In this document: piece by piece, positions 49,440-56,138 of the stretch
Position numbering within the stretch: position 1 is the stretch's first letter
Layout of the letters: each line of letters opens with the position of its first letter
DNA from: Parvibaculaceae bacterium Mf 1.05b.01
GTDB lineage: Bacteria > Pseudomonadota > Alphaproteobacteria > Parvibaculales > Parvibaculaceae
NCBI GenBank assembly: GCA_000509225.1
Contig: BAOK01000001.1
Span: 1,612,001-1,676,000, forward strand
Direction of reading: 5' to 3'
Length of the DNA: 64,000 bases
The notes under the pieces: model-generated
Database searches by the model: none
What the model was told of the DNA's origin: nothing
The model's input: only the letters and a program-made list of their open reading frames with translations
Translations under genes and position numbers: made by a program

Positions 49440-50822
49440 CTACAAATACCATTCCAGTTCGCGGGTCGAGATGATCTTGTTGAACTTTTCAAACTCAAGT
49501 CGCTTTGTCTCTGCATAGATGTCGACAAACAGATCCCCGAAATAATCACGCAAGACCGGTGACCCTACAAAGGTGTCCAGGGCGCGGGGCAATGTGAGCG
49601 GCAGGTCCGGATCGACCCGGTCACAGGCATTCACCTGCGTCGGCTCCCCCGGATCAATTTTGTTCTCAAGTCCGTAGTCAATACCTGCCAGGATAGCCGC
49701 CAATACGAGATAGGGGTTGGCATCCGCACCGGCGACGCGGTGCTCGACGCGCCGTGCCTTTGATGATCCTGTGGGCACGCGGAAGGCTACTGATCGATTG
49801 TTATATCCCCAGGCACCGTTCACCGGCACAAAGACGTTGGGCGCAAACCGCCGATAGGCGTTGAGATTGGGCGCCAAGAGCGCCATCGCGGCTGGGAGCG
49901 TGCGTTGCAGTCCGCCAATGGCGTGCCGCAATTGATCCGTCCCCTTGTCGCCGCCATCGTCAAAGACGTTGTTTCCGTCTGCATCTAGGAGGCTCGTATG
50001 GATGTGACATCCATTGCCTACCTGATCGACATAGGGTTTCGCCATGAAGCTTGCCCGAAAGCCATGTGCGCTTGCCGCGGCGCCAATCAGATAGCGCAAC
50101 AGTATTCCATGATCGGCGGACCGCAAAGGATCGGGTCCATGCTTCAGATTGATTTCATATTGTCCGGGCGCAAATTCTGCGACCGCAGCAGAGGCCGGAA
50201 CAGATAGATCTGAGGCAAAGACGCTGATGTCTCTGAGCAAATCGCTGAACCCGTCCAACTCTGAGAGACCATACACCTGATTGCTTCGTTCACGCTCACC
50301 TGTGCTGGGGTTGATCGGGGCCAGCGGACGCCCATGCGAATCCATCTTTTTGTCGAGAAGATAGAATTCAAACTCGACCGCTGAGACCGGGGTCAAGCCT
50401 CGGACACCAAGGCGCTCAGCCACTCGTGCGAGCACATTGCGCGGTTCGAATTCGCAGGCGCCCCCATCGGGCATATCCATGCTCATCATCACCTGGGCTT
50501 GATCTCGTGCCCAGGGTACGATGGCCAGGGTGCCTGCGATTGGATGCGCCGTGCCATCGGGATCGCCATCAGAAAAGCCGCGCCCATGAATGTCTTCATT
50601 CTCTCCGGTCACGTCCAGAAAATAGACCGACATTGGCAGTTCAAGACCGTCGGTGAAGACCTTGCCCGCTTCAGCCAAGGGCATGCGCTTGCCCCGCACC
50701 GTGCCGCATTGATCGGTAAAGACAGCATTCAAATAGGCGACATCAGGATGGGCCGCACAAAAGGCTTTCCAGTCTGCCAAAGTAGCTCTTCCTGCCGAGG
50801 CAGGTATTTCTCGATTGCTCAT
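49440..50822 (-). CDS. Glutamine-synthetase-family protein (gamma-glutamylpolyamine synthetase-like)
   Basis: A 460-residue GS-fold enzyme of the PuuA/GlnA3-type branch, which joins glutamate to amines using ATP. The N-domain has AYLNAVFTDQCGTVRGKRMP. The catalytic domain has SAVEFEFYLLDKKMDS, FAPGQYEINLKHGPDPLRSA, FMAKPYVDQVGNGCHIHTSL, and AFRVPTGSSKARRVEHRVAG. The adenylylation-loop tyrosine region of GlnA is not obvious. Substrates may be polyamines, ethanolamine or another amine. It lies 3' of the EF-hand/ECF operon on the same strand, separated by 93 bases. Confidence 0.88.
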   Translation of the reverse strand: MSNREIPASAGRATLADWKAFCAAHPDVAYLNAVFTDQCGTVRGKRMPLAEAGKVFTDGLELPMSVYFLDVTGENEDIHGRGFSDGDPDGTAHPIAGTLAIVPWARDQAQVMMSMDMPDGGACEFEPRNVLARVAERLGVRGLTPVSAVEFEFYLLDKKMDSHGRPLAPINPSTGERERSNQVYGLSELDGFSDLLRDISVFASDLSVPASAAVAEFAPGQYEINLKHGPDPLRSADHGILLRYLIGAAASAHGFRASFMAKPYVDQVGNGCHIHTSLLDADGNNVFDDGGDKGTDQLRHAIGGLQRTLPAAMALLAPNLNAYRRFAPNVFVPVNGAWGYNNRSVAFRVPTGSSKARRVEHRVAGADANPYLVLAAILAGIDYGLENKIDPGEPTQVNACDRVDPDLPLTLPRALDTFVGSPVLRDYFGDLFVDIYAETKRLEFEKFNKIISTRELEWYL

Positions 50823-50915: not shown

Positions 50916-51434
50916 TCATTCGGGATTTGAGGGCTCAGCGTTCCGGTCGAGACCCCGATCACCCGGGCGGCCGCGACGAAGGGCCTGAGCAATTTTTTCG
51001 CGAGATTCAGGCGTTAAATCCGCGAATGCCTGCACCAAAATGTCCTGAGACTGTGTCACCACAGCATTCATACCGGCGCGGAGCTCAGCAAATGCCGCTC
51101 TGGCTGCTTCTGGATCATATGGGTCAGCGGCAATGGCCACACTGAGCGCCTGGCGCGTCTGACGCATTTCTCTGAAGAGAGGGCGGAGCTCAGCCCGGTT
51201 CTCCCTCATGGTCGCTTTGAGCTTATCGCGCTCCTCACCTGACAGTTCGCGCGCCACAATATGATGCGGCAATCCGAGCGGCGATGCGTGACCACGACCG
51301 CCCCGGTCCATATTGCGGATGAGACCCGCCGTGATGGCAGCGATCAGAAACAAGTTGATCACCAGGGAGACCAGCAATGCAGGCCCCAACCATTTGCGGA
51401 CGGGCCGCGTGGTGTTTGACGTTTCGTCACTCAT
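50916..51434 (-). CDS. Spy/ZraP-like periplasmic heavy-metal sensor protein
   Basis: A 172-residue protein with one N-terminal membrane anchor (GPALLVSLVINLFLIAAITA, residues 17-36) and a periplasmic helical hairpin rich in Arg and Glu: LSGEERDKLKATMRENRAEL and FREMRQTRQALSVAIAADPY. It has the LTPESREKIAQAL tail of the CpxP/Spy/ZraP and CnrX families. The start is the ATG at 51434, chosen because GGAGG lies seven bases before and it overlaps the upstream stop as ATGA. It is the last gene of the sigma-factor operon and probably senses envelope metal or stress and relays to the anti-sigma protein. Confidence 0.78.
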   Translation of the reverse strand: MSDETSNTTRPVRKWLGPALLVSLVINLFLIAAITAGLIRNMDRGGRGHASPLGLPHHIVARELSGEERDKLKATMRENRAELRPLFREMRQTRQALSVAIAADPYDPEAARAAFAELRAGMNAVVTQSQDILVQAFADLTPESREKIAQALRRGRPGDRGLDRNAEPSNPE

Positions 51435-51898
51435 TGCCATTCCTCCGTCAATGTCGTGTCACCGAGCGCAAGGGCAAGGACATCATAGGATTGTTCCTCG
51501 CTCCAGCTGTCCGTCGCGATCGTCGTGACAGCACCAGACGTCACGCCCAGGACAATAGAGGCTGCAAGAGCGCCAGCCGGAACTGCTGTTGACCCATAGG
51601 GCCAAAGCAGATTGAGTACCTGTTTCACAAGCCCGACTCCGCCTATGCCCTCCTCCTTTTGGGTGGATAGGATGCGGCTCTGCAGGGCATAGCTCGGTGC
51701 TTCAACGGGCGCCGATGCGAGCAGGCCGTCCAGCTCTGCTTCTCCAGCTTGTCGCTTTGCAAGCATCGGGTCCATTGCGATGGACTTTCGGACCGCTTCG
51801 CGATCTGCCTCAGGCCAGCGGGCTTCGTCCGCCCCATAGGCGTCCAGCACTTCTTGTGCCCGCGCTTTTGCTTTTTCAAAATCTGATGCGTCTGTCAT
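51431..51898 (-). CDS. Putative anti-sigma factor (membrane)
   Basis: A 155-residue protein with a cytoplasmic helical N-part (AQEVLDAYGADEARWPEADR), a central membrane helix (PAGALAASIVLGVTSGAV, residues 108-125), and a short periplasmic tail ending in DTTLTEEWQ. No zinc-binding HxxxCxxC motif is seen. Position is the main evidence: it overlaps the ECF sigma gene by ATGA on one side and the periplasmic sensor gene on the other. Such order (sigma, membrane anti-sigma, periplasmic sensor) is typical of metal or envelope-stress systems like CnrHYX, though the sequence is not closely similar. Confidence 0.65.
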   Translation of the reverse strand: MTDASDFEKAKARAQEVLDAYGADEARWPEADREAVRKSIAMDPMLAKRQAGEAELDGLLASAPVEAPSYALQSRILSTQKEEGIGGVGLVKQVLNLLWPYGSTAVPAGALAASIVLGVTSGAVTTIATDSWSEEQSYDVLALALGDTTLTEEWQ

Positions 51899-52632
51899 GG
51901 TTTCACGCTCATGGTTGGGTCGGGAGATGCAGGATCCCCCTCTCCTCTTAGTTCAGACCATTCCGGTCTCAATGATTGTTTCAACGCCCGTCGCCCACGC
52001 GACAGGAGCGATTCTAGTGCTTCAACGCTGACACCCAATATTTCAGACGCCTCCTGATTTGAGAGGTGCTGGTAGTGGGAGAGCACGATCGCCGCACGCT
52101 GTCTCTCCGGCAGAGCCTGGATCGCCCCATCAATACGTCGACCCAATTGCTGTTGATAGAGCTCTGCTTCAGGATCCGGGCGATCGCTTGGTGCATCGAA
52201 ATCGGGGGCGAGAGGTTCCGGCTTCTTCTTTCGGAGCCGATCCAGGCACTGGTTCATCGCGATACGGTGCAGCCAGGTCGATAGTTTTGCCCGTCCTGGC
52301 TCCCATCGGCCGGCCGCTTTCCAGGCCCGCATAAAGGTGTCCTGTGCGACATCTTCTGCCTCTGCCTGATCGCCCAACATGCGCCGGGCAACTGCGAGCA
52401 CGTGTGTCAGGTGGTCGTCCACCAAAGCGCGTCCGGCTTTCGGGTCGCCGTCAGCGAGCGCCGCCATCAATGCATCGTCCTGCGATGCGCCTTCAGGCTT
52501 GTGGGTTTCTGTCTTCAGAGGAATGACGCCCTGCCCTTTCCTCGATCGTCTTTGGACACTGCTACTTCTATACCGGGGCGCCGCGGCGAAGTCACCTGGT
52601 CTGGAAACAGATGATCTCGACGCGACACTCAT
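51895..52632 (-). CDS. ECF-type RNA polymerase sigma factor
   Basis: A 245-residue sigma-70-family ECF factor. Region 2 shows VLAVARRMLGDQAEAEDVAQ, with the following DTFMRAWKAAGRW and KLSTWLHRIAMNQCLDRLRKK. Region 4 shows ALPERQRAAIVLSHYQHLSN and QEASEILGVSVEALESLLSR. The start is uncertain: the ATG at 52632 leaves a Ser/Arg-rich 40-residue extension, and the conserved part begins after GVIPLK. No better standard start exists. It follows the EF-hand gene by four bases and precedes the putative anti-sigma gene with an ATGA overlap. Confidence 0.87.
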   Translation of the reverse strand: MSVASRSSVSRPGDFAAAPRYRSSSVQRRSRKGQGVIPLKTETHKPEGASQDDALMAALADGDPKAGRALVDDHLTHVLAVARRMLGDQAEAEDVAQDTFMRAWKAAGRWEPGRAKLSTWLHRIAMNQCLDRLRKKKPEPLAPDFDAPSDRPDPEAELYQQQLGRRIDGAIQALPERQRAAIVLSHYQHLSNQEASEILGVSVEALESLLSRGRRALKQSLRPEWSELRGEGDPASPDPTMSVKP

Positions 52633-52636
52633 GGGC

Positions 52637-53104
52637 TTAACGCTGGCCGCGACGCTCTTGCATTTTCTGGTGCATTGCTTCGGCTTCTTCGCGGGTAATT
52701 TTTCCATCACCGTTCTCATCCACGCGATCAAACATGCCTTCGCGTCTCTCACCACGCGGACCGGCGGCCATTTCTTCAGGACTCAGGAGCCCGTCCTCAT
52801 TGGTGTCGAGTTTCGCAAACCGTCTTTCCTGTCGCTCCGCCGCGCGTGCTTCGTGTGCGGCACTCATTTCTTCACGGGAAAGCAAGCCGTCCCCGTTTGT
52901 GTCCGCCGCCTGGAAGCGCTGCTCACGGGCCGCCTCTGCTTCTTCCCGCGTGATTTCGCCGTCTTTGTTCAGATCAAGCATTTCGAACATCCGGTCAGGG
53001 TTAGGCGGTCCGCCACCTGGGCCCTTTGCGGCAACAGCAACGCCTGCCGAGGTCAGTAAAAGACCTGCGAGCGCTGATGACAGGATCAGTTTGTTTTTAC
53101 GCAT
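52637..53104 (-). CDS. Secreted EF-hand calcium-binding protein
   Basis: A 155-residue protein with a signal peptide (residues 1-25, cleaved after VAVAA) and four EF-hand loops: DLNKDGEITREE, DTNGDGLLSREE, DTNEDGLLSPEE and DENGDGKITREE. Each has the D-x-D/N-x-D-G pattern and a final Glu. It should bind calcium in the periplasm. It is the first gene of the operon that also holds an ECF sigma factor, a membrane anti-sigma-like protein and a periplasmic sensor, so it may be the regulon's main product or part of the sensing. An upstream palindrome lies at 53158-53196. Confidence 0.88.
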   Translation of the reverse strand: MRKNKLILSSALAGLLLTSAGVAVAAKGPGGGPPNPDRMFEMLDLNKDGEITREEAEAAREQRFQAADTNGDGLLSREEMSAAHEARAAERQERRFAKLDTNEDGLLSPEEMAAGPRGERREGMFDRVDENGDGKITREEAEAMHQKMQERRGQR

Positions 53105-53157
53105 TGCTCATCTCCAATGTGGGTCGACGATGTTCGTCCCGACCGTAAGAAATAGGA

Positions 53158-53196
53158 GCGGCAGACACGCTAGGGGTGGGGGGACGTGCCTGCCGC
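53158..53196. promoter_or_regulatory. Long inverted repeat upstream of the EF-hand operon
   Basis: GCGGCAGACACG and CGTGCCTGCCGC pair at 11 of 12 positions around a G-rich loop (CTAGGGGTGGGGGGA). It lies 54 bases before the EF-hand start, where it could be an operator or an RNA leader hairpin. Confidence 0.45.
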
Positions 53197-53316
53197 ATGA
53201 ACACATTGAGCGGAAATTCATGGTCCGAATATCCCAAACCGGAAAAGCGTCGCCGTCTGCATTCAGTCAATAGAACGCATGGGAGGCCCGGTTCCGTCGG
53301 ACGATCTCAATATATT

Positions 53317-54564
53317 TCAGGAAAAGCGCAAAAAGGGTCGTTTTGTGAGCTTTGCAGGGATGTTTTCCCCGGTCTGAGTCTTGATGGTGAAACCATCGGA
53401 CGCACCCAGCGCAGATGCCCTCACCAACCCGAGCGCGATGGTGCACTGAAGCGTGGGCGACCAGGCAAGAGAGGTGATCCGCCCCACCTGCTTGTCTCCG
53501 TTGCAAATCGGCCCCCCGACTCCCGCGTCAGCCAGATCAAGTTCAAAGCCGACCAACGCGTTTCGGCTTCCGCTTTCGGCCGTTTTTCTCAAGGCCGCTT
53601 GTCCGTTGAAAACAGAGCGATCCAAGTCAACACATCCGCCGAGGCAGAGATCATAGGGGGAGAGTGCGTCTGACGGGTCAACAGCAGTGAATGCGGATAG
53701 ATAATCCACACCTTCCAGCGCCACGCCGTTCTCTAGACGGGCAATGTTACGTACCGCAGATCCGACAGGTCGAAGCCCGACTTTCTGTCCGACGCCGAGC
53801 AGGCGGCGCCAGACAATCGAAGCGTCCGCCGGGTCGCACCAAAGCTCATATTCGAGCCCACCCATCATGCCCGTGCGGCTTAGATAAACGGGCATGCCGC
53901 CGAGTTCTACCCAGACACCTTGATGTTTGGCCAGCGCTGCAGGTTTTTCCATACCAGCCAGTCTAAGGACACTGTCCGCCATGGGTCCTGCAAGCGATAG
54001 ACCTGCAATCGTCCCTGAGACGTCTTCCAACTGAATGTCAAAGCCCAGTGCTGATTGCCGCAGCCAATCCAGATGGGATGAGCGCAGAACCAGGCGAAAT
54101 TCTTCGTCACCCAGACGAAACAAAACACCTTCGGCAATGACGCATCCATTCCCGTCGCACAAAACCGCCCGCGTGGACTGGTTTGGCTCCAGGTTTCCCA
54201 CAGGCCGTGTGAGCAATCGATCCAAGTAAGGAACGACGTCTTCCCCAGACAGGCGCACTTTGGTAAGCGGCGAAATATCTGACAGGCCTGCCCGTGTCCG
54301 CAGCGCATCATATTCCTGCTCAATGCTCGTATAAACGTCCGCCACCGTGTAGCCGGCCCAAGCGGTCCAGCTGTTGGTCCGGCTTTCGTCTGCGACGTCA
54401 AGGTGGAGCGGTGTGGTGAGCACATGACGCGCATAAGGTGCCTCATCTGCTGCCTGCTCGAACCATGCAGGATCTGGCGGGACACCCGGTCCATTCAGCG
54501 GGCTATCGCGAGACACATCTGTGACCTCTTCAGACACGCTATGCTCCGTCACATCTTCCGTCAT
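53317..54564 (-). CDS. GcvT-like folate-binding aminomethyltransferase family protein
   Basis: A 415-residue protein of the glycine-cleavage T-protein fold. It has YEALRTRAGL-like YDALRTRAGLSDISPLTKVR, SGEDVVPYLDRLLTRPVGNL, TRAVLCDGNGCVIAEGVLFR, the RTGMMGGLEYELWCDPADAS loop, and the core GLRPVGSAVRNIARLENG. These match GcvT and the C-terminal domains of sarcosine and dimethylglycine dehydrogenases, which use tetrahydrofolate to accept one-carbon groups. The N-terminal 60 residues are not typical. Start at 54564 overlaps the stop of the upstream flavoprotein (ATGA). It is the third gene of a coupled operon with two PYROXD2-like proteins, suggesting one-carbon transfer from the amine they oxidise. 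Confidence 0.82.
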   Translation of the reverse strand: MTEDVTEHSVSEEVTDVSRDSPLNGPGVPPDPAWFEQAADEAPYARHVLTTPLHLDVADESRTNSWTAWAGYTVADVYTSIEQEYDALRTRAGLSDISPLTKVRLSGEDVVPYLDRLLTRPVGNLEPNQSTRAVLCDGNGCVIAEGVLFRLGDEEFRLVLRSSHLDWLRQSALGFDIQLEDVSGTIAGLSLAGPMADSVLRLAGMEKPAALAKHQGVWVELGGMPVYLSRTGMMGGLEYELWCDPADASIVWRRLLGVGQKVGLRPVGSAVRNIARLENGVALEGVDYLSAFTAVDPSDALSPYDLCLGGCVDLDRSVFNGQAALRKTAESGSRNALVGFELDLADAGVGGPICNGDKQVGRITSLAWSPTLQCTIALGLVRASALGASDGFTIKTQTGENIPAKLTKRPFLRFS

Positions 54565-56138
54565 GACACTTTCTCCGCAGCTAACGCAGCTTCCGCAGAC
54601 AATTTCCCAGGCAGACCGGTTAAGCCGCCGCCAGGATGGGTCCCGACTCCGCACAAATAGAGACCACTGACACCGGCTTCATAGTGAGCCATGCCCGGCG
54701 CCGGACGGAAGGAGAGTAGCTGGTCAAAACTCATATTTCCCTGGTGCCAGCCGCGATTGCCCCAGCCAAACCGGTCTTCAAGTTCTGGCGGTGTCAGCAC
54801 TTCACCCGCAATGATCTTATCGCTCAGGTCCGGTGCATAATCAGAGATCGTATCAATTACGCGCTTCACGAAGGGGTCTTTCTGCGTGTCCCAGCCGCCA
54901 TCTACGTCAAAAGGAACATTGGGCACGATGATCGACATGACGTGATGCCCCATCGGCGCGAGCCGTGGATCATGATAGGAAGGGATCACCAGCTCCATCA
55001 CCGGATCCAGCGTAAGTTCACCACGCTTCGCGGCGGTAAAAGAGCGTTCCACTGTTCCCATATCCGGCGCGATCAAAAGCCGGCCACCATACTCCCGATC
55101 TGAGAAATTTGCGAAAGTGGGCAACCCTTCCAGGGCCAGATTGATCTTGGCGGTCGCCCCCTTCATCTTGATCCGGCTGACATGGGTGACCGCTGGTGTC
55201 TCGAAGTGCCGCGCACCAACAAGATCCAGGCAGGTTGTTTTGGGGTCAACGCTGCTCAGCACAATGGGGGCTTCGAAGACCGTGCCATCTGCCAGCCGCA
55301 CGCCCTTTATGCGCCCTTCTTCAATGATGATCTCAATCACCGGGCTCTCAAGGCGAATGCGAGCCCCCAACCCTTCCGCCGCACTTGCCAATGCTTCCGT
55401 CAGCGCGCCTGTGCCGCCGACCGGATAACCCATGCCCTGCCCAATTGCCTCTTGTGTCTTTTTGTAAACATAAGAAAAGGCCGTGCCAGGCGTGTGCGGA
55501 CCGGCATGTGCACCAAGCGTTGCTTCAAGGGATAGCGCGCCTTTGATCAGGTCGCCTTCGAAGCTCCGATCCAACAAGGAGGCGACACTGGACGGGACAA
55601 GCTGTAAAAATGCCCTCAAGTCTGCGGGTCCCATTTTCTCCAGACGCAATGCCAGCATGGCAGCTGCCTTTGTCGCGGCCTCAGCTGAGACATCCGGCAA
55701 GCGCTTGTCCAGAAGTGGTTTCAGCAGCTTCACATATTTTCCGACGCGGCCCTCAAATGCCTTCCAGGCATCGGCGTCTTGAGCGGCATGTGCGGTGAGC
55801 GTCGCAATGTCAGACTTTCGGCTCGAAGACAGCATGATGTGCTTGCCGTCGCGATCAAGCGCGACGGTCGCCATATCATTTGTTGCCCAGGCAAGACCGT
55901 GTTTTGAAAGTTTCAGGTCTTTTTCGATCTGACGTGGAAAGCCTGAAACTAGATGTGCCGCCGTCGACACCTGATAGTCCGGCGATATTTCCGCTGTCTG
56001 CGCGGCGCCGCCGACAGCCTCTGCGCTGTCCAGCACCACAACATTCTTCCCGGCTTTCGCGAGATATCCTGCCGCAACGAGGCCATTGTGCCCAGCGCCA
56101 ATGACGATGGCATCATATTGAAGGGCGTCATCACTCAT
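54561..56138 (-). CDS. PYROXD2-like/CrtI-type FAD oxidoreductase, second gene
   Basis: A 525-residue flavoprotein of the phytoene-desaturase/amine-oxidase superfamily. The dinucleotide motif is AIVIGAGHNGLVAAGYLAKAG with the acidic end LDSAEAVGGAA. The C-terminal FAD motif is GVSGLYLCGVGTHPGGGLTG and LPGKLSAEAALAAE. The middle part resembles PYROXD2 (pyridine-nucleotide-disulfide-oxidoreductase domain 2), not carotenoid desaturases. The substrate is unknown. It overlaps both neighbours by four bases (ATGA). No membrane helices. There is no carotenoid gene around, which argues against CrtI. Confidence 0.85.
   Translation of the reverse strand: MSDDALQYDAIVIGAGHNGLVAAGYLAKAGKNVVVLDSAEAVGGAAQTAEISPDYQVSTAAHLVSGFPRQIEKDLKLSKHGLAWATNDMATVALDRDGKHIMLSSSRKSDIATLTAHAAQDADAWKAFEGRVGKYVKLLKPLLDKRLPDVSAEAATKAAAMLALRLEKMGPADLRAFLQLVPSSVASLLDRSFEGDLIKGALSLEATLGAHAGPHTPGTAFSYVYKKTQEAIGQGMGYPVGGTGALTEALASAAEGLGARIRLESPVIEIIIEEGRIKGVRLADGTVFEAPIVLSSVDPKTTCLDLVGARHFETPAVTHVSRIKMKGATAKINLALEGLPTFANFSDREYGGRLLIAPDMGTVERSFTAAKRGELTLDPVMELVIPSYHDPRLAPMGHHVMSIIVPNVPFDVDGGWDTQKDPFVKRVIDTISDYAPDLSDKIIAGEVLTPPELEDRFGWGNRGWHQGNMSFDQLLSFRPAPGMAHYEAGVSGLYLCGVGTHPGGGLTGLPGKLSAEAALAAEKVS

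Follow-up and report, generated by a model that had tools for sequence, protein, structure and literature searches.

A conserved ECF sigma factor operon with a putative anti-sigma factor, a CnrX/Spy-fold periplasmic protein and an accessory EF-hand gene

The four-gene locus

The 64,000-nucleotide stretch of DNA analysed here (the window; positions 1,612,001 to 1,676,000 of contig BAOK01000001.1 from Parvibaculaceae bacterium Mf 1.05b.01) carries four tightly packed genes, coding for an EF-hand protein, an extracytoplasmic function (ECF) sigma factor, a membrane protein and a periplasmic protein, and preceded by a promoter and a hairpin (Table 1). An initial annotation, made from the letters alone, had taken the four genes for a complete signalling unit in which calcium or metal binding outside the membrane controls the sigma factor. 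Its list of parts holds up throughout, and the promoter, which it had not mentioned, can now be added. The EF-hand protein does have the four intact loops ascribed to it, all of the canonical 12-residue form (DLNKDGEITREE, DTNGDGLLSREE, DTNEDGLLSPEE and DENGDGKITREE), and its N-terminus, judged by eye, resembles a Sec signal, so that the protein is predicted to be secreted; it stays below the NCBIfam cut-offs for lanmodulin (37.3 versus 135 bits) and XopAW (66.4 versus 120 bits). The sigma factor matches Sigma70_r2 (PF04542; E-value 8.3e-25, 86.8 bits) and Sigma70_r4_2 (PF08281; 1.8e-15, 56.7 bits) in Pfam, and its score for PRK05602 lies above the NCBIfam cut-off (239.3 versus 208 bits). With regions 2 and 4 only, and no region 3 model among the Pfam matches, it has the domain composition of an ECF sigma factor. 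The periplasmic protein, described as Spy/ZraP-like, matches the Pfam family Metal_resist (PF13801; 1.8e-26, 93.2 bits versus a cut-off of 29.2).

The genes are as closely joined as had been claimed. Four bases separate the EF-hand stop codon from the sigma start, which is likely to be correctly placed because an ATG or GTG is kept two to four bases past the EF-hand stop in all six relatives checked within the genus. Sigma and membrane protein genes share an ATGA overlap at 51895-51898, and a second such overlap joins the membrane protein gene to the sensor gene, provided that the latter starts at its second ATG.

Table 1. Features of the operon and its surroundings (positions in the window)
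Feature	Position	Strand or location	Basis and remarks
EF-hand protein gene	52637-53104	minus	155 aa; first in transcription order; Pfam search and loop count
ECF sigma factor gene	51895-52632	minus	245 aa from ATG 52632; open frame 51895-52755 from GTG 52755
Putative single-pass anti-sigma (membrane protein) gene	51431-51898	minus	AlphaFold2 model; sigma gene adjoining upstream across class loci
Periplasmic sensor gene (Metal_resist, CnrX/Spy fold)	50916-51440	minus	Likely start 51434 (second ATG); Pfam
Hairpin in predicted 5' leader, 12-base arms	53158-53169 and 53185-53196	minus	Arms found in sequence; genus covariation
Promoter CGACGGAACCGGGCCTCCCATGCGTT	53274-53299	minus	-35 CGACGGAA, 14 bases, -10 CGTT; predicted reader: the operon's sigma
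Glutamine-synthetase-like flanking gene	49440-50822	downstream of operon	Pfam
GcvT-like flanking gene	53317-54654	upstream of operon	Pfam

Conservation of gene order, promoter and candidate regulon

To leave the neighbouring genes unselected, we based the search of other genomes on a membrane protein profile only. Matches were found in 113 of the 385 genomes sampled from the class Alphaproteobacteria, which is a lower bound, few candidates having been scored per genome. From 119 matched places, 110 were examined (nine low-scoring ones were left out; five of those examined are either the window's own locus or closely related to the profile), and each neighbour was counted among those loci with room for it, for example 109 for the sigma gene. 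Neighbour profiles were built from relatives, those of membrane protein and sensor partly from the same loci as were counted. A sigma homologue lies directly upstream of the membrane protein gene in 107/109 class loci and a Metal_resist homologue directly downstream in 95/104; an EF-hand homologue precedes the sigma gene in 56/106. Among 80 loci from named genomes the corresponding counts are 75/75, 75/76 and 56/72, with record titles that span Alpha-, Beta- (Trinickia, Paraburkholderia, Burkholderia) and Gammaproteobacteria (Luminiphilus, Pseudohongiella). Start and stop codons overlap in NTGA fashion between sigma and membrane protein genes at 64 of 108 class loci, and between membrane protein and sensor genes at 61 of 99. 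The presence of the EF-hand gene changes state 14 times over a tree of 108 sigma factors built with FastTree. From these neighbour counts it follows that the core unit consists of three genes, for sigma factor, putative anti-sigma factor and sensor, and that the EF-hand gene is accessory. The initial annotation had made its reading depend on the order being kept in relatives, and across class and named loci it is kept. In one class locus (L048, positions 2126-2611, reverse orientation) an EF-hand gene directly follows the anti-sigma gene, in the usual place of the sensor gene, and none was found before the sigma gene.

Upstream regions within the genus share CGACGGAA, 14 bases and CGTT. The general form, GGAA-N14-CGTT, is found upstream of the operon in 53 of 122 loci (drawn from L003-L141, near-duplicates included), compared to 0.45 expected from shuffled sequences and one on the opposite strand, and other spacings between 9 and 20 bases occur in zero to two loci each. 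A first scan with spacings of 16-20 bases had remained at chance level (3/121 loci versus 2.0 expected) because the spacing was wrong. Where an EF-hand gene is present the motif precedes it, and otherwise it precedes the sigma gene; the promoter thus moves with the first gene of the operon. EcfG promoters of the general stress response have a spacing of 16 or 17 bases, at which none of the 122 loci has a match, and we therefore reject this promoter type. The motif is also unlike that of ECF26 sigma factors (the Sinorhizobium meliloti RpoE1/E4 type), three promoters of which have GGAA and CGTC or CGTG 16-18 bases apart, whereas CGTT at 16, 17 and 18 bases occurs here in 0, 0 and 2 loci; the comparison is one between promoters.

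The survey also covered 19 Caulobacter-like loci. They are placed in the Caulobacteraceae from 81-88% sigma identity between one family member and four Brevundimonas loci, and we take the genus to be Caulobacter. All 19 have the order EF-hand, sigma, anti-sigma, sensor, and 15 have the motif, which in 12 of them lies 64-73 bases ahead of the chosen EF-hand start. For the EF-hand gene cabp of Caulobacter vibrioides, a promoter has been derived from a transcription start site mapped by rapid amplification of cDNA 5' ends (5'RACE), 40 bases before the ATG; it consists of GGAAA, 13 bases and CGTTCA (PMC13171946), that is, of the same elements at the same spacing as the window promoter. This agreement with mapped data provides independent, experimental evidence of promoter function for the motif. 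The promoter is very likely read by the sigma factor of the operon itself, which would then be autoregulated.

Between promoter and EF-hand gene, the 12-base-arm hairpin noted earlier is present and kept within the genus: in seven sequences, 97.6% of cells are paired and four of the 12 pairs have changed on both sides. It may be a regulatory leader. Long stems, which need not be homologous to the window hairpin, occur in several other leaders of the family, and an Rfam search of the leader returned only a chance-level match on the other strand (E-value 0.74).

Within the window's own genome, the exact motif occurs once, at the operon. Across 40 family genomes, the exact motif, with either C or T allowed after GGAA, recurs outside the operon. 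Of 25 macA orthologues in the family, 17 (L353-L369) have it 61-68 bases ahead of the gene; 8 of these 17 came from the earlier 40-genome motif list and 9 were new. The looser GGAA-N14-CGT precedes macA in 18 of the 25, versus 0.54 expected. The adaptor encoded there falls just short of the NCBIfam cut-off for MacA (325 versus 342 bits); a Walker-A motif is present in the adjoining gene at 13 of 14 readable loci, and the two genes that were tested are MacB-like (ABC_tran and MacB_PCD). The best macA-type matches within the window's genus are only distant. Further sites stand before a major facilitator superfamily (MFS) gene in four genomes (one tested in Pfam) and once each before PepSY_TM, LTXXQ (Spy-like) and M48 peptidase genes; some extra-operon sites fall inside reading frames. 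In three related Caulobacter-like genomes (L398, L409, L412), the exact promoter lies 66 bases before phyR, the gene of the general stress response regulator (one tested in Pfam). Most of these targets are single cases; as a set they suggest a role in envelope defence and stress instead of metal export. In another locus (L384), a recurrent exact promoter is found 67 bases before the gene of a small, probably secreted protein rich in Trp, Tyr and Arg and without a Pfam match, and L383, L403 and L407 have similar sites.

The anti-sigma candidate and the CnrX/Spy-fold sensor

The membrane protein of the window has no Pfam match over cut-off and no NCBIfam match. Since it contains no Cys, it lacks the Hx3Cx2C motif of zinc-binding anti-sigma domains (ZASD), as had been proposed, and zf-HC2 did not occur in the families listed for 66 members of its group (the first 25 of 35). 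Its AlphaFold2 model (mean predicted local distance difference test score, pLDDT, 84; 98 for residues 11-50) consists of three N-terminal helices (4-21, 30-42, 44-62), a fourth helix (70-81) followed by a linker, a membrane helix (105-129), a periplasmic helix (134-144) and a tail ending in TEEWQ. The predicted helix order is that of class I anti-sigma domains (ASDI), in which a three-helix bundle and a separate fourth helix precede the membrane helix (PMC7406223); the protein may belong to this class, although its model had no anti-sigma structure among its structural matches. In class II anti-sigma factors such as CnrY, two helices embrace the sigma factor; the model here has four cytoplasmic helices, and the anti-sigma profile did not match CnrY. 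A likeness between the membrane protein and the sensor was rejected at an hhalign probability of 8%. Taken together, the protein is likely to represent a new family of non-zinc anti-sigma factors.

The predicted periplasmic tail is typically short and acidic where a sensor is encoded. Among the 95 sensor-bearing class loci its median length is 31 residues (10th-90th percentile 24-40), and it is net negative in 93 of them, while in all seven sensor-less class loci with a sigma gene it measures 60-76 residues (Mann-Whitney p 1.6e-5). All seven also carry an EF-hand gene, compared to 47 of the 95 (Fisher p 0.014). The seven are not independent cases. The tree of sigma factors needs three changes, and six of the seven loci sit in one supported branch together with three sensor-bearing ones, so that the association amounts to about three events, not seven. 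The EF-hand proteins of these sensor-less loci share a motif, as judged by eye. Contrary to the trend, the tail is short in L098, a named locus without a sensor gene. The tail lengths are consistent with a contact between tail and sensor, without proving it.

A profile of 20 relatives of the periplasmic protein, compared with solved structures, matched Spy (8.9e-6), CnrX (4.7e-5) and NccX (1.2e-4). In the AlphaFold2 model (mean pLDDT 85), a single N-terminal membrane helix (18-45) precedes a domain whose best Foldseek match is CnrX (2y3b; E-value 0.01, probability 1.00, template modelling score by target length 0.69), followed by NccX, CpxP and Spy. By profile and predicted fold, the protein is a membrane-anchored relative of CnrX, Spy and CpxP. 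While it resembles the stress proteins CpxP and Spy in fold and, weakly, in profile, it differs from them in being anchored by its N-terminal helix and encoded with a sigma/anti-sigma pair.

CnrX is the sensor of a known sigma/anti-sigma unit (PMC4598750). Like this unit, CnrYXH of Cupriavidus metallidurans, the window operon combines an ECF sigma factor, a membrane anti-sigma candidate and a membrane-anchored sensor with a CnrX fold behind an N-terminal membrane helix. The CnrYXH anti-sigma factor is single-pass as well. The window unit differs from CnrYXH in its gene order, the sigma gene coming first, in the frequent presence of an EF-hand gene, and in an anti-sigma candidate without recognisable likeness to CnrY.

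A further difference concerns the metal ligands, which in CnrX we take to be H42, H46, E63, H119 and M123. The CnrX segment in our alignments is that of the M123A mutant. When 65 sensors are aligned, these positions are G, L, K, I and A in the window protein. None of the five ligands is conserved in that alignment, and in no column do His or Cys occupy more than 23% of the rows. Among the 20 nearest relatives, aligned separately, 10 have His in the H42 column, where the window protein has a gap; E63, H119 and M123 are again lost, and no column could be assigned to H46. We therefore reject metal sensing through the full CnrX ligand set, given that E63, H119 and M123 are lost in both alignments and H42 is absent from the window protein. 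Since most ligands are not kept, the protein may work as a CnrX-fold partner, but is probably not a metal sensor of the CnrX type.

A probable envelope switch and its rivals

Based on these results, we regard it as probable (roughly 0.72) that the operon encodes a three-protein signalling core of ECF sigma factor, single-pass anti-sigma factor and anchored CnrX/Spy-fold sensor, accompanied by an accessory EF-hand protein and expressed from a promoter read by its own sigma factor. It would most likely act as a CnrYXH-like switch between envelope sensor and sigma factor, with calcium as a plausible modulator rather than a universal input. At rest, we infer, the N-terminal helical bundle of the anti-sigma factor would keep the sigma factor at the membrane, while its short acidic tail would dock onto the CnrX/Spy-like protein in the periplasm. 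An envelope condition, be it the misfolding or exposure of an envelope protein, the presence of a toxic compound, or a change in pH or calcium, may then alter or titrate the CnrX/Spy-like protein, whereupon the anti-sigma factor would release the sigma factor. The latter, once free, is predicted to transcribe its own operon and, in relatives of the Parvibaculum type, envelope genes such as macAB. The EF-hand protein, made first from the shared transcript, could serve as a calcium-dependent modulator or buffer in the periplasm.

Several observations weigh against this model. The strict promoter pattern was not found in 69 of the 122 loci, and sites with at most one mismatch number 19 in the window's genome (the exact one included), compared to 48 in a reversed-pattern control; long reading frames contain most of the one-mismatch sites. 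Among the Foldseek and VIA-align results for the anti-sigma model there was no solved anti-sigma structure, and for the sensor model no Foldseek E-value was as low as 0.001. Seven class loci with a sigma gene and the named locus L098 have no sensor gene, so that the sensor is not indispensable. In Caulobacter, moreover, cabp and sigV are reported to be transcribed independently and to be under SigT as well (PMC13171946).

The calcium circuit of Caulobacter is among the closest known parallels. There, cabp is followed by the ECF sigma gene sigV, as in the window operon, although CaBP has three EF-hand loops instead of four; a further sigV promoter lies inside cabp, and the two downstream genes are not mentioned in the sections of the paper covered here (PMC13171946, published in 2026). 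CaBP is periplasmic, cabp and sigV influence one another, and acid as well as calcium limitation by ethylene glycol tetraacetic acid (EGTA) elicits a response of both; the component that links CaBP to SigV was left as a question mark by the authors (PMC13171946). Because the Caulobacter-like genomes carry the same four genes in the same order, the gene after sigV is a strong candidate for this missing membrane link, and the question mark becomes a testable gene. In Caulobacter crescentus NA1000, going by the gene numbering, this gene and the next are probably CCNA_02836 and CCNA_02835. Genetic support for a calcium link is indirect and comes only from the Caulobacter relative.

Alternatively, the EF-hand protein could be the true sensor, calcium loading or loss altering its contact with the anti-sigma tail, while the CnrX/Spy-like protein is only an output chaperone. 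The Caulobacter genetics argue for this, as do the EF-hand genes of all seven sensor-less class loci and of L098, and the EF-hand gene in the sensor's place in L048. Yet 50 of 106 class loci have no upstream EF-hand gene (L048 having its downstream one), the sensor is present in 95 of 104, the gained or lost EF-hand genes scatter over 14 changes on the sigma tree, and the sensor-less association shrinks to about three events, which makes this explanation unlikely. Still less probable, to the point of being improbable, is a genuine CnrYXH-like metal sensor unit for Ni, Co, Cu or Zn. In its favour, the solved structures nearest to the sensor include CnrX and NccX, the Pfam family is named for heavy-metal resistance, and half of the sensor's 20 nearest relatives have His in the H42 column; but the window protein keeps none of the ligands that could be placed, and the 65-sensor alignment has no well-filled His or Cys column in their stead. 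The readable extra promoter sites precede MacAB-type, MFS and other envelope genes, with the one site before an RcnB-like gene lying within other reading frames, and the gene numbers 02835-02838 are absent from the main text and printed tables of a Caulobacter copper study. Thus, of the reading given in the initial annotation, the coherent sigma/anti-sigma/periplasmic-sensor unit stands, strongly backed by conservation, while calcium or metal as the controlling signal is less well supported, given that an EF-hand gene is found upstream of sigma in only 56 of 106 class loci and most CnrX ligands are gone.

A more far-reaching version of the envelope switch, which we consider less likely than not, is a widespread calcium-gated sigma switch, in which EF-hand and CnrX/Spy-like protein would jointly read the calcium and envelope state at the tail of the new anti-sigma family, and the sigma factor would drive MacAB-type export and, in Caulobacter-like bacteria, PhyR. 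Calcium signalling across bacterial envelopes is a long-standing question, for which the unit offers defined parts to test, including a promoter consensus with macAB and phyR as predicted targets. Our results also suggest that Metal_resist proteins in such sigma units need not sense metal. The self-activated rpoE8 operon of Azospirillum brasilense is similar, by names only, in that it encodes a sigma factor, a hypothetical protein and a 'periplasmic heavy metal sensor'; no EF-hand protein is named for it in the sections covered here (PMC12826043). With at least 113 of 385 sampled class genomes, records titled Beta- and Gammaproteobacteria, and an anti-sigma candidate outside the Pfam and NCBIfam families at their cut-offs, the signalling unit is a conserved one; our literature searches found no published description of the four-gene unit, although the 2021 ECF classification could still contain one.

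Some individual loci and neighbours deserve mention. The GcvT-like gene upstream of the operon was seen again, by eye, in several family relatives. On the minus strand of L052, two reading frames share the sigma gene between them, although its EF-hand and anti-sigma neighbours look intact. Two records, titled Planctomycetota (L063) and Mesoflavibacter (L095), hold loci of the alphaproteobacterial type and are probably mislabelled or contaminated assemblies; the anti-sigma candidate of L063 is 72% identical to that of the window.

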